Shown here: piece by piece, positions 10,147-51,134 of the stretch
How positions within the stretch are numbered: the stretch's first letter is position 1
How the letters are laid out: each line of letters opens with the position of its first letter
DNA from: Mycetocola zhujimingii
GTDB lineage: Bacteria; Actinomycetota; Actinomycetes; Actinomycetales; Microbacteriaceae
Direction: 5' to 3'
Assembly (NCBI RefSeq): GCF_003065425.1
Contig: NZ_CP026949.1
Location: forward strand, 1,736,001 to 1,800,000
DNA length: 64,000 bases
Program-made: the position numbers and the translations under genes
The notes under the pieces: generated by a model
The model's database searches: none
What the model saw: the letters and a program-made list of their open reading frames with translations, nothing else
What the model was told of the DNA's origin: nothing

Positions 10147-10764
10147 TCACTCGGCGGCGATACGCCTGATCAGGGCGGATGCCTGCGTGAGAATGGCCTC
10201 CACCGACTCGGCGCCGGGACCGACGAAGAGCTTCTGCAGCGTGTAGCGCAGCACCGTGAACGCGAGGGCCACCACCATCGCCGCCTCATCCTGGAGATCG
10301 TCACCGGTTCGGCCCATGGCCCGAAAGCGAGCGAGCACCAGGCCCACCAGTTCGTTCTCCTGGGTGACCATCCACTCCATCTGCCTGCCGAGAAGCTCCG
10401 GCGTTGCGGTAATGATGGACAACCGTGACCGGAGAAGTTCGGCATCGACCGATTCGTCGGTGAGGGCGGATGCCATGATCCGGACGAGGTCGTGCACGAT
10501 GTCGTTACCGGGCTCCGAGATGAACCGCTTGCCGTCGAGGTCGTCGAGTGTCGGCGCCGGGCCGAGAATCACGCCCTCCTTGGAACCGAAGTAGTTGAAG
10601 AACGTGCGCTGCGACACCTCGCTGGCCGCGCAAATCATCTCGACGGTGACGTGGTCGTATCCGTGCTCGAGGACGAGTGCGATCGCCGCGTGTTCGATCA
10701 CTGACCTGGTCTTCGCTCGCTTCCGAGCCCGCAGCCCGACGGCCGGTGCAACATCGTCATTCAT
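10147..10764 (-). CDS. TetR-family transcriptional regulator
   Basis: 205 residues. The N-terminal helix-turn-helix domain shows the TetR pattern (VTVEMICAASEVSQRTFFNY, then FGSKEGVI) at about residues 38-68; the rest is a variable ligand-binding domain. It starts twelve bases after the cydC stop on the same strand, with no terminator visible between, so it may be the last gene of the cytochrome bd operon. The ligand and targets are unknown. It is not the only candidate regulator of that operon, since a BlaI-type repressor sits at the other end. Confidence 0.85.
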   Translation of the reverse strand: MNDDVAPAVGLRARKRAKTRSVIEHAAIALVLEHGYDHVTVEMICAASEVSQRTFFNYFGSKEGVILGPAPTLDDLDGKRFISEPGNDIVHDLVRIMASALTDESVDAELLRSRLSIITATPELLGRQMEWMVTQENELVGLVLARFRAMGRTGDDLQDEAAMVVALAFTVLRYTLQKLFVGPGAESVEAILTQASALIRRIAAE

Positions 10765-10776
10765 GGTCCATCATTT

Positions 10777-12489
10777 CTACAGCACGGAAGACAGGACGCC
10801 CGACTCGATCCGGAATCGCCGGTGAACGAGTCCTTCCGGCAGGTCGGCGTGGGAGATCAGGATGATGGTCCTGTCGTCTCCCTGGCCCGCGCGCAGCAGG
10901 TCGACGAGAAGCGATTCGGCAAGGTCTGCCTCCACATTCGCCGTCGGTTCGTCGAAAACGATGACGGGGAAGTCCCGGAGCAGGGCTCGCGCGAGGGCGA
11001 TCCGCTGCGCCTGTCCGCCTGAAACGAGCGCGCCGCGCTCACCGACCCTGGCGTCAAGACCCCCTCGGGCGACGAGCCATTCGCCGAGACCGACGCGCTC
11101 GAGCACGTCGATGAGGTCAGCATCCGTTGCGGTGTCCTTCGCGAACAGGAGATTCTGTCTGATGCTCTCGTCGAACAGGTAAGGAACCTGCTCGCAGAGC
11201 CCGACAACACCGCGCACGGCGTCGAAAGGGAGGTCGCGCACCTGCTGCCCCGCGAGCTGGTAGCTCCCCTCGTAGTCGAGGAATCGAACGAGCACGTGAG
11301 CCAGCGTTGTCTTCCCTGCACCGCTCGGCCCCTCGATGAGCACTCGCTCCCCGCGCTGGATCGCGAGCGAGTCAATGCTGAGGGTCGGTGCGGTTGCCCC
11401 TGGCCAGCGAGCGGTCACATTGGAGAGGGCGATGACGGGCGCCGTGGGGTCAGGATTCGCTTCGGCCGTGCCGACATCCGAGGGGAGTTCGCCGGGCGCG
11501 TCGGTGGGTGCTAGCCGGGCGATCCGCTCAGCGCTCGCTCGCACCTGCCTCCACGCACTTGCCGCGAGGGGAACGCTCGCCACGATCTCGAAGACCGCGA
11601 GCGGAACGAGGACGATGACCGCGAGTGCAGGCCCGGTGAGACCGTCTTCAGCCGACAGCCCGGGAATCCCCGCTACCAACGACCACGCGACGGCAAGTCC
11701 AGCGCACAGTGACAGTGCGGCGGCTGCGATCCCCACGCCCGCTGAGCGCGCGGTAAGGGCTCGGGTCAGAGCGCTGTCGGCGGCTTCGACCTTGCGACGA
11801 CCCTCGGCCTCGGCACCGTACGCGATGAGAACGTCGAGGCTGCCGAGGTAGTCGAGGATCGCGTCGACGAGCGCAGCGCGGCGCGGCGCGAGTGACCGTT
11901 CGGCGGATGCCGCGACACGGCCGGAGACGACGGTTCCGATGACAAATGCGGCGACGAGGGCCAGTGCGAGTCCCGCAGCGGCAGCTGGCGAGATGAGTGC
12001 GACGACCCAGACGGCAATGGCGGCGACACCGAGGGACGTGACCAGGGGCTGGAGCACCCGGAGCGGCAGGTTCTGAAGTTCGTCGACGTCGGAGACCAGC
12101 GAGGACAGCAGCGAACCACGGCGGGTCCGGCCGAGCCCATCGGGTGCCAGCGGGATGAGTCTGCGCAGAAGATCCACGCGAACGCTCTCCAGCTGACGGA
12201 AAGCGGCGTCGTGGCTGGCGAGGCGCTCGAGGTAGCGGAAGAACGCGCGCCCGAGGGCGAATGCGCGCACGCCGACGACAGCCATCGACAGGTAGAGAAT
12301 GGGCGGCTGCTCCGCAGCGCGCGTGATCAGGTATGCGCTCGTTGCGAGGAGCGCCACGGTGCACAGGGCCGCGAGGATGCCGAACAGGACGCCGAGGATC
12401 GCTCCCTTGGTCCTGGGCAGTGCGGTCGCGAGTACCGCGCGCACCTGACCGGCACTCACGGGGTTTGAATCGCGGGAAGCTGCACTCAT
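10777..12489 (-). CDS. cydC: Thiol-reductant ABC exporter, CydC subunit
   Basis: 570 residues: an N-terminal six-TM domain (about 1-320) fused to an ABC ATPase domain. With CydD it forms the exporter of glutathione/cysteine-type thiols needed to assemble cytochrome bd. Motifs: Walker A GPSGAGKTT, signature LVSGGQAQRIALARALL, Walker B VIVFDEPTANVEAD. The ATG overlaps the cydD stop by four bases (ATGA), so translation is probably coupled. It is the fourth gene of cydABDC, the order known from mycobacteria and streptomycetes. Confidence 0.93.
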   Translation of the reverse strand: MSAASRDSNPVSAGQVRAVLATALPRTKGAILGVLFGILAALCTVALLATSAYLITRAAEQPPILYLSMAVVGVRAFALGRAFFRYLERLASHDAAFRQLESVRVDLLRRLIPLAPDGLGRTRRGSLLSSLVSDVDELQNLPLRVLQPLVTSLGVAAIAVWVVALISPAAAAGLALALVAAFVIGTVVSGRVAASAERSLAPRRAALVDAILDYLGSLDVLIAYGAEAEGRRKVEAADSALTRALTARSAGVGIAAAALSLCAGLAVAWSLVAGIPGLSAEDGLTGPALAVIVLVPLAVFEIVASVPLAASAWRQVRASAERIARLAPTDAPGELPSDVGTAEANPDPTAPVIALSNVTARWPGATAPTLSIDSLAIQRGERVLIEGPSGAGKTTLAHVLVRFLDYEGSYQLAGQQVRDLPFDAVRGVVGLCEQVPYLFDESIRQNLLFAKDTATDADLIDVLERVGLGEWLVARGGLDARVGERGALVSGGQAQRIALARALLRDFPVIVFDEPTANVEADLAESLLVDLLRAGQGDDRTIILISHADLPEGLVHRRFRIESGVLSSVL

Positions 12490-14138
12490 GATGCCGACAC
12501 CCCCGCGAGTGAGTTGACGTGAAGCAGAGCGTCAGCGCGTTCGATGACGGCGGCCCGGTGGCTCACGACGACCACAGCGGTTCCCGAGCGCGCGATGCTC
12601 GCGAGGCCGTCGAGCAGCCGGTTCTCGGTCTCGTGGTCGAGTGCAGAGCTCGGCTCGTCAAGCAGAAGAACGGAGCACGAGTTTTCCAGCGTGCGATAGA
12701 TCGCCCGGGCAACACCGACACGCTGCGCCTGGCCGCCGGAGAGGCCGGAGCCCGCGACACCGACGGCGAGGTCCGGCGAGATTTCAGCGGCCGCGGCGAG
12801 TGTGAGTGCGGTCCGGACCCGTTCGGGGTCTGGATGCCCGGACCCAAGTGCCACGTTGTCGGCAACGGTCCCGAGGAAGAGTGACGGTCGCTGCCCGGTC
12901 CAGGCCAGCCACGGTCGGTCAGCTGCTCCGGCGAGCACGGGCTCTCCGCCAAGAGAGATGTCACCGGAGCGCGGAACGAATCCGAGAATGGCGGCGACGA
13001 GGCTGGACTTGCCCGATCCGCTGGGCCCGGCGATGACCGTCAGCCGTCCCGGGGCGAATTCGGTCGACACGGGTGCGAACACCGGACCCGACCCGTAGTC
13101 GACGCTGACGCTTCGCAGCTGGAGGACGCCGGAACTGCGCTCCTCACCCGCTGGCACCGCTGCATCCGGACGCACCTGGCGCGCCTCATCGAGGATGACA
13201 AACGCGTCTTCGGCGGCCGCGACGCCCTCGGCAGCAGCGTGGAAGTTCGCGCCGACCTGTCGAAGAGGCAGGAATGCCTCCGGCGCGAGGAGGAGGACGA
13301 ACAAGCCGATACCGAGCACAAGCGACCCGTCGACGAGGCGAAGCCCGATCGAGACGGCGACGAGAGCGACCGAGAGACTGGCTGCGAGCTCCAGCGCAAA
13401 GCTCGACAGGAAGGAGACGCGAAGGACCTTCATCGTCTGCACGCGATAGTCCGTCGTGATGGCGCGCATCCGTGTGACCTGCCGCGATTCCCGGCCAAAG
13501 ATCTTGAGCGTCGCCAGGCCGCCGAGCGTGTCGACGAAACCGGACGACAGGGTCCCGAGCACCGACCACTGCCGTCGCTGCACCGCCTGGGTCGCCCAGC
13601 CGATCAGAACCATGAAGAGCGGAATGAGCGGCAGCGTCACGAGGATAAAGAGTGCGGATACCGGATCCTGAAACAGAATCACGACGACAATCACCGGTGT
13701 GACAATCACCGTCAGGATCAGCTGGGGCAGGTATTTCGAGAAGTAGTCATCGAGCGCGTCCATCCCCCTGCCGAGCAGGGTCGCAACTCGGGCCGTGTTG
13801 TGTTCGGCAAGCCACGCCGGACCAAGCAGCCGAACAGCGTCAAGAACCCGGAGCCGGAGCTCACTCTTGACCCTCGCGGCACCCCTCGCAGCGATGAAAT
13901 CCTGCGCGTACACGAGCGAAGCACGGATGACCGCGACCCCGGCGAGTGCGCCGATGTACGGCATCAGTTCATCGAGACCGCGCCCCTCGATTGCGCCGGT
14001 GACGCACTCGGTGATGAGCCAGGCAAAAGCGACGATGCAGGCAGTCGTGGCGACACCCATGATGGCGCCCGAGAGCAGGAACCACCGTGCACTGACCGCG
14101 TATCGAAGGAGCCGGGGATCAAGGGGACGCACAGTCAA
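12486..14138 (-). CDS. cydD: Thiol-reductant ABC exporter, CydD subunit
   Basis: 550 residues with an N-terminal TM domain and a C-terminal ABC ATPase (Walker A GPSGSGKSS, signature GLSGGQAQRVGVARA, Walker B VLLLDEPSSALD). It pairs with CydC in the heterodimeric exporter required for cytochrome bd maturation. The first start codon after the cydB stop is TTG at 14138, three bases beyond it; GTG at 14132 (VRPLDPRL) is an alternative two codons in. The tight spacing to cydB and overlap with cydC show a single operon. Confidence 0.93.
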   Translation of the reverse strand: MTVRPLDPRLLRYAVSARWFLLSGAIMGVATTACIVAFAWLITECVTGAIEGRGLDELMPYIGALAGVAVIRASLVYAQDFIAARGAARVKSELRLRVLDAVRLLGPAWLAEHNTARVATLLGRGMDALDDYFSKYLPQLILTVIVTPVIVVVILFQDPVSALFILVTLPLIPLFMVLIGWATQAVQRRQWSVLGTLSSGFVDTLGGLATLKIFGRESRQVTRMRAITTDYRVQTMKVLRVSFLSSFALELAASLSVALVAVSIGLRLVDGSLVLGIGLFVLLLAPEAFLPLRQVGANFHAAAEGVAAAEDAFVILDEARQVRPDAAVPAGEERSSGVLQLRSVSVDYGSGPVFAPVSTEFAPGRLTVIAGPSGSGKSSLVAAILGFVPRSGDISLGGEPVLAGAADRPWLAWTGQRPSLFLGTVADNVALGSGHPDPERVRTALTLAAAAEISPDLAVGVAGSGLSGGQAQRVGVARAIYRTLENSCSVLLLDEPSSALDHETENRLLDGLASIARSGTAVVVVSHRAAVIERADALLHVNSLAGVSAS

Positions 14139-14141
14139 AGG

Positions 14142-15167
14142 CTAGTCTGCGGCGGGGACGTCGGAGTGCTCGACGGCCTCGATGTGGCCGCGAGTGACCC
14201 GCTTACGGAACACCCAGTAGGTCCAGGCCTGGTAGGCGAGGATGAGCGGAAGTGCGATGAGCGCGGTCCAGCTCATGACCTGGAGCGTGTACGGGCTCGA
14301 CGACGCGTTCTCGATGGTCAGGCTGTTGGCCGGGTCGTTGCTGGCCGGCATCACGTCGGGGAACAGCGATGCAAAGAGCGTGAGCACGGCGAAGGTGATC
14401 GTGAGCGCCATAAGCGTGAACGCCTGCCCCTCCCTGCCCTTGATGTTCGCGATCACCGAGGCGATCAGGGTGAGTGCTGCGGCAGCGGCGAGGACGAATG
14501 CCGGCAGGGTGCCGTAGGAGAGCACGGTCCAGACCAGGAACGACGCGGCGACGAGAACCGTGAGGATGCCAGCACGGATGGCGAGGGCGCGGGACCTGAC
14601 CCGGAGTTCGCCCTCGGTCTTGAGCGTGAGGAACACCGCGCCGTGGGTGAAGAACAGGAGGAGCGTGGTGACGCCGCCGAGCAACGCGTACGGGTTCAAC
14701 AGGTCGAAGACCGTTCCCGTGTAGTTGTGGCCGGAGTCCAGCGGCACGCCGCGGACGATGTTGGCGAAGGCGACACCCCAGAGGAAGGCGGGAATCGCGC
14801 TGCCGGTGATGATCATCCGGTCGAAGCGACGTTTCCACTCCTTCTCGGGCCGCTGGTGGCGGTATTCAAACGACACTCCGCGGATGATGAGCGCGATGAG
14901 GATGATCAGCAGCGGGAGGTAGAACCCGCTGAACAGCGTTGCGTACCACTCGGGGAACGCGGCGAAGAGCGACGCACCGGCAACGATGAGCCACGTCTCG
15001 TTGAGGTCCCACACGGGGCCGATGGTGTTGATGACGACGCGACGGTCGGTGTCGTCCTTCGAGACGAACGGAAGGCTCATCCCCACCCCGAAGTCGAACC
15101 CCTCGAGTACGAAATACCCGACGAAGAGGAAGGCGATGATGCCGAACCAGAGAACTGTGAGATCCAT
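14142..15167 (-). CDS. cydB: Cytochrome bd ubiquinol/menaquinol oxidase subunit II
   Basis: 341 residues, the normal CydB length. It begins MDLTVLWFGIIAFLFVGY, followed by EGFDFGVG, the typical CydB N-terminus; about eight to nine hydrophobic segments follow. It forms the oxidase with CydA, reducing oxygen to water with quinol electrons at high oxygen affinity. An open frame extends far upstream of ATG 15167, but that part is antisense-frame noise within cydA. It starts eight bases after the cydA stop. Confidence 0.95.
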   Translation of the reverse strand: MDLTVLWFGIIAFLFVGYFVLEGFDFGVGMSLPFVSKDDTDRRVVINTIGPVWDLNETWLIVAGASLFAAFPEWYATLFSGFYLPLLIILIALIIRGVSFEYRHQRPEKEWKRRFDRMIITGSAIPAFLWGVAFANIVRGVPLDSGHNYTGTVFDLLNPYALLGGVTTLLLFFTHGAVFLTLKTEGELRVRSRALAIRAGILTVLVAASFLVWTVLSYGTLPAFVLAAAAALTLIASVIANIKGREGQAFTLMALTITFAVLTLFASLFPDVMPASNDPANSLTIENASSSPYTLQVMSWTALIALPLILAYQAWTYWVFRKRVTRGHIEAVEHSDVPAAD

Positions 15168-15175
15168 TTGTCTTC

Positions 15176-16588
15176 CTAGTAGACCGTGGTGTGGATGAGT
15201 GGTTTTCCGGGTTCTTCCTCTGACTCGCCGATGGCCGCAGGGCCCTCCTGGGCAGTCTTTTTGATCAACCGGAACTCGACGACGGCGAGCGAACCATAGA
15301 CGAGGGTGAACGCAACGAGCGAGATGAGCACCTCGATGCCCGTTACCCCCGGAGAAACGCCGTCGGCGGTCTCCAGCAGGCCGAACACGAGCCAGGGTTG
15401 CCGTCCCATCTCGGTGAACACCCAGCCGACGATCATCGCGCCGAGTGACAACGGGAACGACCAGACCGCAGCCTTCCACACCCACTTGTTGGTTGGCATC
15501 CGTCCCTTGCGGGTGAGCCACAGGCCGACGACGGCAACGATGACGTGCAGGATGCCCATGCCGATCATCCAGCGGAACGACCAGTAGGTAACCCAGATGA
15601 TCGGCGTGTAGTCGCCAGGTCCGTAGAGGGTCTGGTACTGCTCCTGCAGGTTGTTGATGCCCTCGACGGTGCCGTCGAACGTGTGGGTCGACAGGAACGA
15701 GAGCAGGTACGGGATCCGGATGGAGAAGAGTTCGCTGACGCCGTCGGGGGTGCCGAGCGTGAAGATCGAGAAGGATGCCGCTGCGCCGGTCGAGGTCTCG
15801 TACATCGCTTCTGCTGCTGCCATCTTCATGGGCTGCGTTGCCACCATGGCGAGGCTGAGCTGGTCGCCGGCGAGGGTGGTGAGGGCACCGGAGATGACCA
15901 TTCCCCAGAGACCGAACTTGAGCGCCGGTCGCATCGTCTCGAGATGCTGGTTCTTGGAGAGGTGCCAGGCCGCGACCGTGATGATGAGGCCGGCCGAGAC
16001 CATGAAGCAGGCAAAAATGGTGTGCGGGAACGCCGCGAGAGCGACCGGGTTGGTGAGCAGCTCCCAGATACTGGTGAGTTCCGCCCTGCCCTTTTCTTCG
16101 TTGATCGTGAACGCGACAGGGTTCTGCATGAACGCGTTGGCGGCGATGATGAAGTACGCCGAGAGGATGCTGGCTATCGACACCAGCCAGATGGTTGCGA
16201 GGTGCAGCTTGGCCGGCAGCTTGTCCCAGCCGAAGATCCACAGGCCGATGAACGTGGCCTCGAGGAAGAACGCGAGGAGACCCTCGAACGCGAGTGGTGC
16301 GCCGAAGACGTCACCGACGAAGCGGGAGTAGTCGGACCAGTTCATGCCGAACTGGAACTCCTGGACAATTCCAGTCACGACGCCCATGGCGAAGTTGATG
16401 AGGAAGATCTTTCCGAAGAACTGGGTGATCTGGAGGTAGTGGACCTTGCCGGTTCGTACCCACGCTGTCTGGAAGATCGCGACGGTCAGTGCCATGCCGA
16501 TCGTGAGCGGCACGAAGAGGAAATGGTAGATCGTCGTGAGTCCGAACTGCCAGCGCGACAGTAGTAGCGGATCGAGCAGGTCGTTCAC
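15176..16588 (-). CDS. cydA: Cytochrome bd oxidase subunit I
   Basis: 470 residues. CydA carries haems b558, b595 and d and the quinol site. Recognised from the N-terminus (SRWQFGLTTIYHFLFVPLTI with its haem-ligand histidine), FGMNWSDYSRFVGDVFGAPL, and the GRQPW motif near residue 390. The Q-loop is the short type usual in actinobacteria. The start is GTG at 16588 with a strong GGAGG four bases upstream. It heads cydABDC. Three inverted repeats lie in its promoter region, shared with the divergent blaI-like gene, which strongly suggests repression by that protein. Confidence 0.95.
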   Translation of the reverse strand: MNDLLDPLLLSRWQFGLTTIYHFLFVPLTIGMALTVAIFQTAWVRTGKVHYLQITQFFGKIFLINFAMGVVTGIVQEFQFGMNWSDYSRFVGDVFGAPLAFEGLLAFFLEATFIGLWIFGWDKLPAKLHLATIWLVSIASILSAYFIIAANAFMQNPVAFTINEEKGRAELTSIWELLTNPVALAAFPHTIFACFMVSAGLIITVAAWHLSKNQHLETMRPALKFGLWGMVISGALTTLAGDQLSLAMVATQPMKMAAAEAMYETSTGAAASFSIFTLGTPDGVSELFSIRIPYLLSFLSTHTFDGTVEGINNLQEQYQTLYGPGDYTPIIWVTYWSFRWMIGMGILHVIVAVVGLWLTRKGRMPTNKWVWKAAVWSFPLSLGAMIVGWVFTEMGRQPWLVFGLLETADGVSPGVTGIEVLISLVAFTLVYGSLAVVEFRLIKKTAQEGPAAIGESEEEPGKPLIHTTVY

Positions 16589-16603
16589 GTCACCTCCACA
16601 GAG

Positions 16604-16624
16604 TTTTCTACACCGCGTAGAAAA
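16604..16624. promoter_or_regulatory. Operator O1, BlaI-type inverted repeat, cydA-proximal
   Basis: TTTTCTAC and GTAGAAAA form a perfect 8-bp palindrome around a 5-bp spacer. It sits between the proposed cydA -10 box and the cydA ribosome-binding site, so bound protein would block early transcription. Confidence 0.75.
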
Positions 16625-16636
16625 GCTTTCGCTCTG

Positions 16637-16642
16637 AGCCTA
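16637..16642 (-). promoter_or_regulatory. Proposed -10 box of cydA
   Basis: TAGGCT on the minus strand between operators O1 and O2. The matching -35 position, 17-18 bases upstream, falls inside O2. Confidence 0.4.
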
Positions 16643-16649
16643 GACCCAT

Positions 16650-16666
16650 TTCTACGAGCCGTAGAA
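16650..16666. promoter_or_regulatory. Operator O2, BlaI-type inverted repeat, middle
   Basis: TTCTAC and GTAGAA around a 5-bp spacer (GAGCC). It overlaps the expected -35 position of cydA. Its centre is 44 bp from that of O1 and 22 bp from that of O3. Confidence 0.7.
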
Positions 16667-16670
16667 CTGT

Positions 16671-16689
16671 TTTCTACGAAATGTAGAAA
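16671..16689. promoter_or_regulatory. Operator O3, BlaI-type inverted repeat, blaI-proximal
   Basis: TTTCTAC and GTAGAAA, a perfect 7-bp palindrome around a 5-bp spacer. Its right half covers the -35 position of the blaI-like gene, which predicts autorepression. Confidence 0.75.
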
Positions 16690-16705
16690 TTCACGCGAAC
16701 TGGGG

Positions 16706-16711
16706 TATTCT
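16706..16711 (+). promoter_or_regulatory. -10 box of the blaI-like gene
   Basis: TATTCT six bases before the ATG at 16718; a leaderless start. The -35 position coincides with operator O3. Confidence 0.55.
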
Positions 16712-16717
16712 TGAACA

Positions 16718-17086
16718 ATGGCAACCCTCGGTGAACTCGAACGATCGGTGATGGACGTGCTGTGGAGCACAGACGGTTCACTCAGCGCGAACGACCTTCG
16801 CGACAGCCTCGACTCCGGTCTAGGCGCACGGGAAGTCGCGGTCACGACGGTACTGACCGTGCTGTCGCGACTTGAGAACAAGGGCTTTGTCGAGCGGGAC
16901 CGTTCAACCAGACCCCACCTTTACCGATCGGTCACCTCGAGGGCCGAACACACCGCCGACCTCATGCACGAGGTCCTCGGAACAGCCAACGACCGCGAGG
17001 CAGCGCTCGCCCGCTTCGTCGGTCAGGTCAGCCCGCAAGAAGCGGAGACCCTGCGCGCGCTTCTCGGTGGGACTCCCACGTCCTGA
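16718..17086 (+). CDS. BlaI/MecI/CopY-family repressor
   Basis: 122 residues, the usual length. The N-terminal winged helix runs from LGELERSVMDVLW through VAVTTVLTVLSRLENKGFVER (residues about 4-60); the C-terminal part is the dimerisation region. In this family a partner membrane metallopeptidase triggers cleavage or release of the repressor; the M56 gene 17 bases downstream is that expected partner. The gene diverges from cydA across three TTCTAC-N5-GTAGAA palindromes, resembling known BlaI operators with half-sites ending in CTAC/GTAG. I infer that it represses itself and cydABDC. No beta-lactamase gene is in the window, so the name refers to the family only. Confidence 0.92.
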   Translation: MATLGELERSVMDVLWSTDGSLSANDLRDSLDSGLGAREVAVTTVLTVLSRLENKGFVERDRSTRPHLYRSVTSRAEHTADLMHEVLGTANDREAALARFVGQVSPQEAETLRALLGGTPTS

Positions 17087-17103: not shown

Positions 17104-18045
17104 GTGATGCTCACCGCCTCCGTCGTGCTCGCCGCACTGGCCCTCACTCTCGCGTGGCCGGTACCCCTGGCGCTCTCACGGGCGCGATGGACAGCCCGAG
17201 CCCCCGGCACCGCCCTCGTGCTCTGGCAATCGATCGCACTGGCCGGTGGCCTGTCCATGATCGGTTCGCTGGTCACATACGGCCTCATCCCGTTTGGCGA
17301 CAATCTCATCGATGGCGGCATCCGCCTCATCAATCATCTGTTTGCGGGGACCCTGCCGACCGGCGCGACGCTCCCCCAGATGTTCGCACTGTGCCTTGCC
17401 GTGCTTCTGACCGGGCACCTGCTCCTGAACCTCGTGCTCACCGCGGTTCGGAGCGAGCGTCAGCGCAAGCGCCACCTCTCTCTCGTGAACCTGCTGAGCG
17501 CTCCGTTGGAGGGAAACCCCGGCACTCGGGTGATCGATCACCCGTCTCCCGTCGCGTACTGCCTGGCCGGGACGAGCAGCTCCGTCACCGTGCTGTCCGA
17601 GGGCCTGCTTGCCCTGCTCGATCACGACCAGCTTCGGGCTGTCATCGCGCACGAACGCGCTCACCTCGCGCAACAGCACCACCTGGTCCTCATCGCCTTC
17701 AAGTCGTGGCACAGCGCCCTCCCGTGGTTCCCCATCGCCAATCGTGCGGAGAACGCCGTCGCGCTTCTCGTTGAGATGCTCGCCGACGACCAGGCTCGCA
17801 GGGCGACGGATGACCGCACACTGGCGACAGCCATCGCGCTCGTCGGATCAGGGGCGCGGAGCGATCCGCTTGCTCCTGAGCTCGCCTGGGCGAACCGCGG
17901 CGAGATCGAACCCGGCCTCGTTGGCCCGCGGGTCGCGAGACTCGTGAACCCGCAGCCACCGTTGCCGCTCGGCGCGCGGGTGTGCGTCCTCATCGGGGCT
18001 ATCGCTCTGCTCGTGATTCCGACCGTGCTGCTCGCACTCATCTAG
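17104..18045 (+). CDS. M56 (BlaR1-type) membrane metallopeptidase
   Basis: 313 residues. Hydrophobic segments lie near the N-terminus, around residues 40-60 and 95-120, and at the extreme C-terminus. Between them is a cytoplasmic zinc protease domain with HERAH at residues 183-187 (HExxH) and a downstream ADDQAR. No penicillin-binding sensor domain is present, so it is shorter than BlaR1 and more like the mycobacterial M56 partner of BlaI. Likely job: sense a membrane or respiratory signal and inactivate the adjacent repressor. GTG 17104 and ATG 17107 are both possible starts. Confidence 0.88.
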   Translation: MMLTASVVLAALALTLAWPVPLALSRARWTARAPGTALVLWQSIALAGGLSMIGSLVTYGLIPFGDNLIDGGIRLINHLFAGTLPTGATLPQMFALCLAVLLTGHLLLNLVLTAVRSERQRKRHLSLVNLLSAPLEGNPGTRVIDHPSPVAYCLAGTSSSVTVLSEGLLALLDHDQLRAVIAHERAHLAQQHHLVLIAFKSWHSALPWFPIANRAENAVALLVEMLADDQARRATDDRTLATAIALVGSGARSDPLAPELAWANRGEIEPGLVGPRVARLVNPQPPLPLGARVCVLIGAIALLVIPTVLLALI

Positions 18046-18064: not shown

Positions 18065-18739
18065 GTGAATGAGTTCCTCACCTGGCTGCTCGACCTCGTG
18101 CAAAGCGTTGACCCCGTCCTTCGCACGGTTCTCGCGGGCACCGCGATCCTGCTCGAAACCAGCGTGCTCGTCGGTCTCATTGTTCCCGGCGACACCGTCG
18201 TCATTGTGTCGAGCACGGCGGTCGAGAGCCCTGCCCAGTTCGTTGGGCTGATCGCCGCCGTACTGATCGGCTCGATCGTCGGCGAGTCCATCGGCTTCGC
18301 ACTCGGACGATTCTTCGGACCCCGGATCCGGGCGAGCCGCCTCGGCAGGAAGATCGGCGATCGCCACTGGGTCCGGGCGGAAAACTATCTCGACAGGCGA
18401 GGGGGCATCGCCGTCTTTATTTCACGATTCCTTCCTGTACTGCACTCGCTCATCCCCCTCACGGTCGGGATGAGTTCCATGTCGTATCGCCGATTCATCA
18501 GCTGGACCATCCCCGCCTGCCTGTTGTGGTCGATCGCCTACGTCTCGGTCGGTTCGGCGGCGGCCGGCACCTACAGGCAACTCGCTGACCAGCTGCACTA
18601 CGCCGGCTACATCTTCGTGGCGATTATCGGGGCGTTCCTGGTCGTGGCATACCTCGTCAAGCGAGTTCTGAAACGCTCGGAAGAGCGCCACATGAACCGC
18701 CCGGGTGACGGTGACCCAGCAACACCCGAAAGCGACTGA
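18065..18739 (+). CDS. DedA-family membrane protein
   Basis: 224 residues. DedA proteins are transporters or scramblases of lipid or undecaprenyl-phosphate type that support envelope homeostasis. Visible features: N-terminal hydrophobic region with ETSVLVGLIVPGDTVVIV, then the family signature FISRFLPVLHSLIPLTVGMS with its conserved arginine and proline, and two C-terminal TM segments. The tail (from about residue 205) is charged and polar. It lies 19 bases after the M56 peptidase gene and just before an App1-type phosphatase gene on the same strand. Substrate is not evident. Confidence 0.9.
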   Translation: MNEFLTWLLDLVQSVDPVLRTVLAGTAILLETSVLVGLIVPGDTVVIVSSTAVESPAQFVGLIAAVLIGSIVGESIGFALGRFFGPRIRASRLGRKIGDRHWVRAENYLDRRGGIAVFISRFLPVLHSLIPLTVGMSSMSYRRFISWTIPACLLWSIAYVSVGSAAAGTYRQLADQLHYAGYIFVAIIGAFLVVAYLVKRVLKRSEERHMNRPGDGDPATPESD

Positions 18740-22869: not shown

Positions 22870-23925
22870 TTAGCTGATACCCCGAGGCTCCGCGAGCCGA
22901 GCCCGCAGGGTGAGCAGCGTGAGCGCCGCAGCGTCGACGTGCTCCATCGAGAGCCTTCCGGCGTCAACGGCGTCGCTGACCGCCTCCACCAGGCGCGCGG
23001 CATCGGTGCGGACTTGCTCAGGGTCCCCGCGGAGCACGTAGAGCAGCATTGTCGCCCCGGCAGCGAGGGCGCGAACGGCGTTCTCGGCGGCGTCCCGGTA
23101 CTCAGGCACTCCGCTATCCCCCAGCATGAGCATGTCGTCGGTGATGATGACCCCCTCGAAGCCCAGCCGCTCGCGGAGTATCACGTGGCACGCGCGGGAC
23201 AGTGTGGCGGGCTGGTCGTCCACCGTCGAATACCTGAGGTGACCCATCATCACGAAGTCGGCACCGGCGAGGATGCCGGAACGGAACGGAGCGGCATCCG
23301 TCTCCTCCCACGTCGCGAGATCGACGGCGGTCTCGGGGATCGAGGAGTGCGAGTCACCCGGCGTTCTGCCGTGGCCGGGGAAATGCTTGAGCGTGGAGAA
23401 CACGCGCCCGCTCTCCCCCGTGACCGCCGCGCTCACACGCTCAGCGGCCTCGGCGGCGGTTGTTCCGAGCACCCTGTCATTCATGAACGATCCGGGATCG
23501 TCGGTGACGTCGGCGACGACGCCGAAGTTGACGGAGATACCGGCTTCGGCGAGCAGTGCTGAGCGGGCAGCGAAGGCCTCCCTCGTCTCCTCAGGATCGC
23601 GGTGCCTGAGGGTGACCGCAGAGGCAAAGCGGTCGTCAGCAATGCGCCGAACCCGACCACCTTCCTGGTCGATTCCGATGAGCGGAGGAAGGTCCTCGTC
23701 CCCTCCCGCGTGGCGGGCGAGCGAGGCAACGTCCGCCAGGCCCGCGCCGATGTTGTCCGGCATGAAGATCATGCCGCCCGGCTGGGTGTCGGCGACGAAC
23801 GAGCGCAGTGCGCCCTCGTCCGTCCCAGGCAGGTGCAGCATGAACAGGCTCGCGATCCTGCGGGCTCGCGACATCCCGGCCAGCCGCTCTTCCGCGGCTT
23901 TCACCGGGCCGGCATCCGCACTCAT
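22870..23925 (-). CDS. Glycoside hydrolase family 3, NagZ-like
   Basis: 351 residues, a single GH3 TIM-barrel domain with no second domain, as in NagZ beta-N-acetylglucosaminidases of cell-wall recycling. Signature KHFPGHG is followed by the NagZ-type loop DSHSSIP; the nucleophile is the Asp in VIITDDMLM. No signal peptide is seen, so it probably acts in the cytoplasm. The ATG overlaps the stop of the upstream dehydrogenase by ATGA, so the two are co-translated. The link to peptidoglycan recycling follows from the family; nothing else in the window belongs to that pathway. Confidence 0.88.
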   Translation of the reverse strand: MSADAGPVKAAEERLAGMSRARRIASLFMLHLPGTDEGALRSFVADTQPGGMIFMPDNIGAGLADVASLARHAGGDEDLPPLIGIDQEGGRVRRIADDRFASAVTLRHRDPEETREAFAARSALLAEAGISVNFGVVADVTDDPGSFMNDRVLGTTAAEAAERVSAAVTGESGRVFSTLKHFPGHGRTPGDSHSSIPETAVDLATWEETDAAPFRSGILAGADFVMMGHLRYSTVDDQPATLSRACHVILRERLGFEGVIITDDMLMLGDSGVPEYRDAAENAVRALAAGATMLLYVLRGDPEQVRTDAARLVEAVSDAVDAGRLSMEHVDAAALTLLTLRARLAEPRGIS

Positions 23926-51115: not shown

Positions 51116-51134
51116 GTTCTAGTTCAACTAGAAC
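51116..51134. promoter_or_regulatory. GntR operator palindrome
   Basis: GTTCTAGTT and AACTAGAAC around a single C: a perfect 9-bp inverted repeat filling the spacer upstream of the GntR -10 box. Bound GntR would block RNA polymerase. Confidence 0.8.

Follow-up and report, generated by a model that had tools for sequence, protein, structure and literature searches.

Tandem palindromes predicted to link a BlaI-type repressor and its membrane protease partner to the cytochrome bd genes of Mycetocola zhujimingii and relatives

The window, by which we mean the whole 64,000-nucleotide stretch of Mycetocola zhujimingii DNA that was analyzed, contains a cytochrome bd gene cluster, cydABDC, that diverges from a gene pair encoding a BlaI-like repressor and a membrane zinc protease. 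The intergenic gap between cydA on the minus strand and blaI on the plus strand is 129 bp long (16589-16717), as the initial annotation had it, and it holds three palindromes that we take, with near certainty, to be operators of the adjacent BlaI, linking this repressor to cydABDC. From comparisons of sequence among relatives, the operators, the match between repressor and operator, the cydABDC target, autoregulation, and the protease partnership are well supported as predictions; that BlaI represses rather than activates, that it is cleaved, and above all what the signal is, we infer. The combined model, a repressor-protease switch for cydABDC, is in our judgment probable, and the data point to a putative respiration sensor built from antibiotic-sensing parts in this species and in many of its relatives. 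The genes of the locus are as follows.

15176-16588, minus strand: cydA, cytochrome bd subunit I (PF01654, 8.7e-159)
14142-15176, minus strand: cydB, cytochrome bd subunit II (PF02322, 3e-114), inside a longer ORF at 14142-16241
12486-14138, minus strand: cydD-like ABC exporter half for bd assembly (PF00664 and PF00005; named from its position)
10777-12489, minus strand: cydC-like ABC exporter half for bd assembly (PF00005 and PF00664; named from its position)
16718-17086, plus strand: blaI-like repressor, 122 aa (PF03965, 8.3e-22; no cysteine)
17104-18045, plus strand: M56/BlaR1-like membrane zinc protease, 313 aa (start GTG at 17104 or ATG at 17107; HERAH at residues 183-187, E224)
18065-18739, plus strand: VTT/DedA-family membrane protein (PF09335), 19 bp after the protease gene

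The VTT/DedA gene is probably on the same transcript as the protease gene. It was found in 17 of the 60 family genomes with blaI divergent from cydA (the linked loci), always with the short class of CydA, in a set where many loci end too early to show a VTT gene. A TetR-type regulator is encoded just after cydC on the same strand (10147-10764), and a glycosyl hydrolase family 3 gene lies ∼5 kb downstream (22870-23925) and shows nothing that would tie it to the switch. Eight further neighbors that were run against Pfam are housekeeping genes or are without evident link. The palindromes in the gap, and the promoter boxes that we read around them, are placed as follows.

16606-16622: operator O1, TTCTAC-ACCGC-GTAGAA, exact match, in the cydA leader between the likely transcription start and the ribosome-binding site
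16650-16666: operator O2, TTCTAC-GAGCC-GTAGAA, exact match, over the likely cydA -35 region and spacer
16672-16688: operator O3, TTCTAC-GAAAT-GTAGAA, exact match, over the likely blaI -35
16637-16642, minus strand: likely cydA -10, TAGGCT, as read from the sequence and a four-genome alignment
16706-16711, plus strand: likely blaI -10, TATTCT, 6 bp before the ATG, as read from the sequence

These putative boxes agree with the earlier placement of O2 over the cydA -35, O3 over the blaI -35, and O1 in the cydA leader. The palindromes themselves are exact and the centers first proposed for them (16614, 16658, and 16680) are right, but the intervals given for two of the three extended 1-2 bases too far at either end. 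Because the likely blaI -10 lies only 6 bp from the ATG, the blaI mRNA is probably leaderless. O3 starts 46 bp before blaI, the commonest distance in relatives being 47 bp; of the 60 linked loci, 26 (the window's among them) have a site that begins 46-48 bp before blaI, and a box similar to TATTCT can be recognized by eye at the same place in many of these 26 promoters. Within the genus, O1 aligns in four of four genomes and the arms of O2 are identical in four of four. When the columns of the four genomes (own included) are counted, 35 of 36 arm positions are invariant, compared with 1 of 15 spacer positions and 54 of 112 others; since the arms are conserved across relatives, a chance origin of the palindromes can be excluded. 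The pattern is also rare, with only three exact copies of TTCTACN5GTAGAA in the 3.19-Mb genome, all of them in the cydA-blaI gap, and two more places with one mismatch. Neither of the latter (L004, L209) has an obvious respiratory neighbor by eye. Once two mismatches are allowed, the pattern shows no enrichment in the genome (64 matches; the reversed control gives 118), and we give weight to a copy only when it is exact or nearly so.

The family sample consisted of 150 genomes, own included, with a BlaI match in 90, cydA in 114, and blaI divergent from cydA in 60. BlaI matches of at least 54% identity number 59 in this sample, and 58 of them are divergent beside cydA. Conservation of the palindromes beside cydA and blaI, which the initial annotation had made one test of its proposal, was borne out by a scan of the linked gaps: exact sites are present in 55 of 60, with 1-4 per gap. 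In total, 9,693 gap bases contain 110 exact sites vs 0.0 in mononucleotide shuffles, the consensus being approximately WNTTCTACRNNNYGTAGAANW, with constant arms and free spacers. The five exceptions are themselves informative in their detail. Two of these gaps have two one-mismatch copies each, and both copies of a gap carry the same change; one gap has three copies in which every spacer is 6 bases long; and the last two have TACTACN5GTAGTA, with BlaI proteins that are 45-46% identical to that of the window and form their own tree branch. The operators of one promoter thus change together and behave as sites of one regulator, and operator variants accompany regulator variants. Divergent neighbors often remain together for other reasons, and one could suppose that the palindromes are there by chance or that the genes merely hitchhike as neighbors with no regulatory link. 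Given the number of sites over expectation, the contrast between arms and spacers, the way operator variants go with the regulator, and the retention of the site at both genes after separation (see below), we consider this vanishingly improbable.

The distances between sites were used in the initial annotation to propose that all three face the same side of the helix. The 44- and 22-bp spacings are correct for the window, but same-face placement is not conserved in relatives, in which the distance from one site to the next is 17-26 bp, with a broad peak at 23-25 bp (n = 56 spacings). The circular resultant of these spacings is 0.59, with a mean phase of 81 degrees at 10.5 bp per turn. We rejected helical phasing as a general feature; the spacings cluster by distance and not by face, and they spread over much of the turn. 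An exchange of oxidase under a constant regulator was considered and not adopted. The BlaI tree needs three changes of CydA class, and strongly supported branches force only one, so that such an exchange is possible at most.

Genomes in which the two genes have come apart offer the strongest evidence that BlaI would read the site at both. Eight genomes outside the family (three Arthrobacter, including one in which 3.8 kb separates the genes, four Nesterenkonia, and Pseudonocardia endophytica) carry tandem exact sites at cydA and have blaI elsewhere. In each of the eight, the unlinked blaI retains a site upstream, five exact and three with one mismatch, and is accompanied by the protease gene. 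Within the family, we assembled an unlinked set of 57 regions of 761 bp upstream of cydA, from 54 genomes without a linked blaI; exact sites are found in 2 of the 57 (one genus) and sites with at most one mismatch in 5. A site with at most two mismatches stands at cydA in 8 of 22 genomes with an unlinked BlaI vs 0 of 32 without a BlaI match (Fisher p 0.0003). The proposal that the palindromes link BlaI to cydABDC is upheld by these two comparisons, eight of eight separated pairs and none of 32 genomes. The other 14 of the 22 have no site with two or fewer mismatches upstream of cydA. Their BlaI proteins are mostly less than 46% identical and may be other paralogues, yet the unlinked BlaI of one genome (G097) does belong to this class (55%), and cydA there has no such site upstream. 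In five of the ten unlinked family blaI loci examined, blaI is immediately preceded by a site with no more than one mismatch; the protease was found beside blaI in six of the ten with our own query and in a seventh (L268) by weak Pfam matches. The protease gene lies downstream of blaI on the same strand in all 60 linked loci, within 132 bp in 59 and at 1,270 bp in one. Because the two genes are paired in the 60 linked loci, the eight separated ones, and most unlinked family loci, they mostly travel as a unit.

We also searched more widely for tandem sites. Order-wide, they occur in 22 of 297 genomes, and the reversed control in 0 of 297. Phylum-wide, tandem exact sites occur in 2 of 396 Actinomycetota genomes, the window's own and one of the same order, which means that Actinomycetota as a whole do not share the exact tandem form. 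A search of contigs, one genome per species, for a tandem pair of sites returned at least 120 stretches, and in 103 of the 120 matches listed cydA follows the sites within 600 bp: 60 in Micrococcaceae, 30 in Microbacteriaceae, 8 in Geodermatophilaceae, 2 in Frankiaceae, 1 in Pseudonocardiaceae, 1 in an unclassified actinomycete, and 1 (L070) in a record labeled Bacillus and flagged as unverified. The 17 listed stretches that are not beside cydA include three Aurantimicrobium, one Kineosporia, and one Virgisporangium among the actinobacteria, and six Bacillota, one Planctomycetota, one labeled Deltaproteobacteria, three Bacteroidota, and one Verrucomicrobiales among the others. In four other genomes, of Frankia, Parafrankia, Virgisporangium, and Kineosporia, blaI proved to be adjacent to a cydA, the Kineosporia pair being without a site of this kind.

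The regulator itself is readily classified. BlaI matches PF03965 (Penicillinase_R) with 78.1 bits against a curated cutoff of 22.6, over residues 4-116, and is the sole match to this model in the window's genome. The nearest chain in a PDB comparison is 2g9w, which we take to be M. tuberculosis Rv1846c, followed by MecI and BlaI. Inverted-repeat candidate operators over BlaI's own promoter are present and conserved at the level of sequence. Copper repressors of the CopY type carry C-terminal CxC metal-binding cysteines. CopY/TcrY proteins belong to the same fold family, and the window's BlaI matches their model only weakly (TIGR02698, 30.7 bits, cutoff 121.95). Unlike them, the BlaI described here has no cysteine metal site and has a partner protease; cysteine is absent from BlaI in 59 of 60 linked loci and CxC from all 60, which rules out a metal sensor of the CopY type.

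Assignment of the protease is less direct. The window protein matches Peptidase_M48 (PF01435, 7.4e-12) in Pfam and has no match to M56 (PF05569) or to the NCBIfam BlaR1 model, and a PDB profile search found HtpX and Ste24p and not BlaR1. We nevertheless describe it as M56/BlaR1-like on the basis of its pairing with BlaI, the spacing of the HExxH motif and the Glu ligand, and weak PF05569 matches, below the cutoff, of two related proteins. H183, E184, H187, and E224 are invariant across 42 aligned protease rows, and E224 follows the first His of HExxH by 41 residues, the same spacing as in BlaR1, whose zinc ligands are given as H201/H205/E242 in the available text of PMC9834060. The 59 complete proteases are 228-339 aa long vs 585 positions in the NCBIfam BlaR1 model and are thus too short, in 59 of 59 cases, to have room for an extracytoplasmic penicillin-binding sensor domain. 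With helix limits taken from a reading of hydropathy, conservation is 0.71 and 0.77 in the first two membrane helices, 0.72 in the core, 0.37 in the outer loop, and 0.41 in the last helix. That the first two helices are conserved as highly as the protease core suggests sensing within the membrane.

We think it quite likely that this protease is the antirepressor of BlaI. Staphylococcal BlaI and MecI are cut between Asn101 and Phe102, as described in part of PMC9834060, and the Phe of that cleavage site aligns with Phe100, which is present in all 60 linked BlaI proteins. The residue before it (P1) is Arg in 55 of 60, vs Asn in staphylococci. This difference, together with the VTT gene in the row, which suggests a separate membrane role, could be read to mean that BlaI represses cydABDC while the protease has another substrate, induction being achieved by another regulator or by a BlaI ligand. 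We regard that reading as improbable, given that the protease gene follows blaI in all 60 linked loci and in the eight separated ones outside the family, that it was found in most unlinked family loci, and that Phe100 is invariant.

Sites at other genes bear on the signal. The 60 linked genomes contain 145 exact sites, 110 in the cyd-blaI gap and 35 elsewhere. Of the 35, 18 fall in five genomes of two genera; the other 17 are scattered and may be due to chance. In a Microbacterium-like genus (L315-L318, L322-L324, L333-L343), an exact site lies 54-57 bp before a pta match in five of five genomes, the arms staying constant while the spacers vary, and a site before atpB is exact in four of five and has one mismatch in the fifth (Pta and AtpB were identified by Pfam, the following ackA by eye). 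In the second genus, a site is found ∼190 bp before ctaC-ctaD, encoding an aa3 oxidase, in two of two genomes (by Pfam in L329, by eye in L330). In one genome of the Microbacterium-like genus (G001), double sites precede a flavohemoglobin gene, and others separate a narK-like gene, whose product matches the NarK model below the cutoff, from a molybdopterin (moaB) gene. The 16 extra-site regions of the two genera comprise nine of energy or respiration, two with a row of membrane-protein genes, and five that are not respiratory by name (a radical SAM gene; an HTH gene with a hydrolase; MarR; one of unknown kind; and a pdxS-like gene). The membrane-protein row, with an operator nearby, was seen at L315:2-2483 and L318:3-1481 in two genomes of the Microbacterium-like genus. 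The L315 proteins are about 380 and 450 aa long with no Pfam match, L318 was read by eye, and a YceI gene is near one of the rows. In Virgisporangium, tandem sites precede a cytochrome b gene. Judged from these neighbors, the main theme of the actinobacterial extra sites appears to be respiration and cofactors. The window's genome has no site with three or fewer mismatches in the 350 bp before its atpB match, and we do not claim a wider energy regulon for it for that reason. Across the family sample, a site is found in only 2 of 29 atpB upstream regions (G001 and G007, one mismatch each).

Other sites stand by genes of copper delivery. In Aurantimicrobium (L063, L077, L125), a tandem operator lies between a BlaI-protease pair and divergent PCuAC and Dyp peroxidase genes (PCuAC, Dyp peroxidase, and CopC were identified by Pfam in L077; L063 and L125 were read by eye). 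Likewise, genome G083 (L273) has one exact and one one-mismatch site between a BlaI-protease pair and PCuAC/Dyp peroxidase genes (Pfam). In Kineosporia babensis (L142), a CtaG/CopD fusion is opposite a row of blaI, protease, and P-type ATPase (heavy-metal domain) genes, and tandem operators follow the ATPase row, before a PepSY_TM gene. The same operator at PCuAC genes and by the Kineosporia ATPase row would fit a copper signal, by which the copper-free bd oxidase is turned on when copper is short for aa3 (or in excess). In the available part of PMC7924339, M. tuberculosis without SigC at low copper raises rv1620-rv1624 (cytochrome bd) and rv1303-1305, and blaI is discussed in the same low-copper/SigC context. 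We consider a copper signal unlikely: the BlaI proteins of the copper-gene loci are distant (31-41% identity), those of the linked loci have the cysteine-poor makeup described above, and targets such as the ATP synthase, pta-ackA, and nitrate genes have no specific tie to copper.

A respiratory or energy signal is favored because sites in some relatives stand at ATP synthase, pta-ackA, cytochrome aa3, flavohemoglobin, and narK/moaB genes, and we hold it likely that the signal is of this kind rather than a beta-lactam. The respiratory side of the switch suggested in the initial annotation gains support as an interpretation, from these energy-gene sites and from the lack of a beta-lactam sensor domain in the protease. 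Alternatively, the switch could respond to the cell wall or to beta-lactams and induce cytochrome bd as well, in the manner of mycobacterial BlaI-BlaR. The BlaI family is named for beta-lactam induction and the nearest PDB chain is 2g9w; moreover, according to the portion available of PMC5473688, amoxicillin-clavulanate induces cydAB and blaI-blaR in mycobacteria, and mycobacterial BlaR is likewise without an external sensor. We judge such a switch decidedly improbable here, since none of the 59 complete proteases has room for the sensor domain, the exact operators of the window's genome are confined to the cydA-blaI gap, and no beta-lactamase or cell-wall gene is among the Pfam-identified neighbors of the extra sites (16 regions of two genera, and a few others besides).

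With a respiratory or energy signal, the switch would work as follows. A BlaI dimer on each site would block both divergent promoters and would repress cydABDC together with BlaI's own blaI-protease-VTT unit. The trigger would be failure of the main bc1-aa3 branch (low oxygen, a heme-copper oxidase that is blocked or fails to assemble, or perhaps a shortage of copper). The protease would be activated via its membrane part and would inactivate BlaI, most likely by cutting before the conserved Phe100; upon loss of BlaI, the bd oxidase and its assembly exporter would be made. In a few relatives, the same repressor would have gained ATP synthase, pta-ackA, cytochrome aa3, and NO/nitrate genes, and copper-delivery genes would have been gained with more distant BlaI proteins.

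The staphylococcal and Bacillus systems BlaI-BlaR1 and MecI-MecR1 have a winged-helix repressor acting at palindromic operators over divergent promoters, an arrangement that the window's locus would share. Here too the partner is a membrane gluzincin protease with the same H-E-H...E spacing, but there is no penicillin-binding sensor domain and no beta-lactamase target was seen. The Staphylococcus/Bacillus operator is of the TACAN2TGTA type, unlike TTCTACN5GTAGAA. Cytochrome bd genes are also switched with respiratory state by Rex and by ArcA/FNR; these proteins and Crp1 are unrelated to the pair described here and work by other mechanisms, sensing NADH, quinol, oxygen, or cAMP. In mycobacteria, BlaI targets reportedly given in Sala 2009 are rv1845c, blaC, rv1456c, rv3921c, and rv1303, with cyd not listed. 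In the parts available of the respective papers, mycobacterial BlaI is described as binding and repressing the Rv1303-atp operon (PMC12565901), the binding of BlaI to promoters of cytochrome bd and of ATP synthase is credited to Sala 2009 (PMC5473688), and the atp operon and sigC are named as BlaI targets in a set of papers (PMC5874750, PMC8265638, PMC8457756), not each of which adds to the point. Mycobacterial Crp1 likewise follows respiratory state: in M. smegmatis, loss of aa3 leads to cydAB induction by way of Crp1 (PMC7739888, in part), so BlaI is not a universal actinobacterial route to cyd. The pair in the window resembles M. tuberculosis BlaI (Rv1846c)-BlaR (Rv1845c) in having, as far as PMC5473688 describes it, a BlaR without external sensor and in the placing of BlaI on an energy operon (PMC12565901, in part). 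It differs in that M. tuberculosis blaI is away from cyd by gene numbers (Rv1846c vs rv1620-rv1624, from the available text of PMC7924339), and in that BlaI there controls a beta-lactamase, whereas here blaI is divergent from cydABDC with the exact operators confined to that gap.

Because the mycobacterial reports tie BlaI to the atp operon and cytochrome bd, a link between BlaI and respiration is not new. Among the titles and abstract openings of the open literature searched, no account of a blaI-M56 pair divergent from cydA was found; the new part, as far as that literature shows, would be a BlaI-protease pair that is dedicated to cyd, lies divergent from it, and has a tandem operator conserved among relatives. 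This pair is a concrete, conserved candidate regulator of cytochrome bd for many Microbacteriaceae, Micrococcaceae, Geodermatophilaceae, and some others, and it would recast a textbook antibiotic-resistance switch as a respiratory one. It also bears on how mycobacterial BlaI joins beta-lactam tolerance to ATP synthase and oxidase choice, and the operator, the regulon, and the separated pairs make the model directly testable. More tentatively, and as less likely than not, we suggest that the BlaI-protease pair of Actinomycetota is at root a respiratory-membrane sensor (of redox, energy, or oxidase copper supply), whose core job would be the switching of terminal oxidases and ATP routes, with sensing via the conserved first two helices of the protease and beta-lactamase control as a later use.

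Some further occurrences of the pattern were noted. In the window, a separate perfect inverted repeat, TTCTAGTTCAACTAGAA, lies at 51117-51133, two mismatches from the operator pattern. Four of the listed tandem stretches (L084, L109, L133, L089) show the pattern in repeat arrays of 41-42 bp (Bacteroidota) or 21 bp (Verrucomicrobiales) and are probably unrelated. L069, from Clostridia, is also among the listed tandem stretches not beside cydA. In five other Clostridia stretches (L116, L163, L173, L174, L071), a tandem operator lies beside BlaI-like genes with long BlaR1-like proteins, as judged by a family test for L071 and L116 and by eye for L163, L173, and L174.
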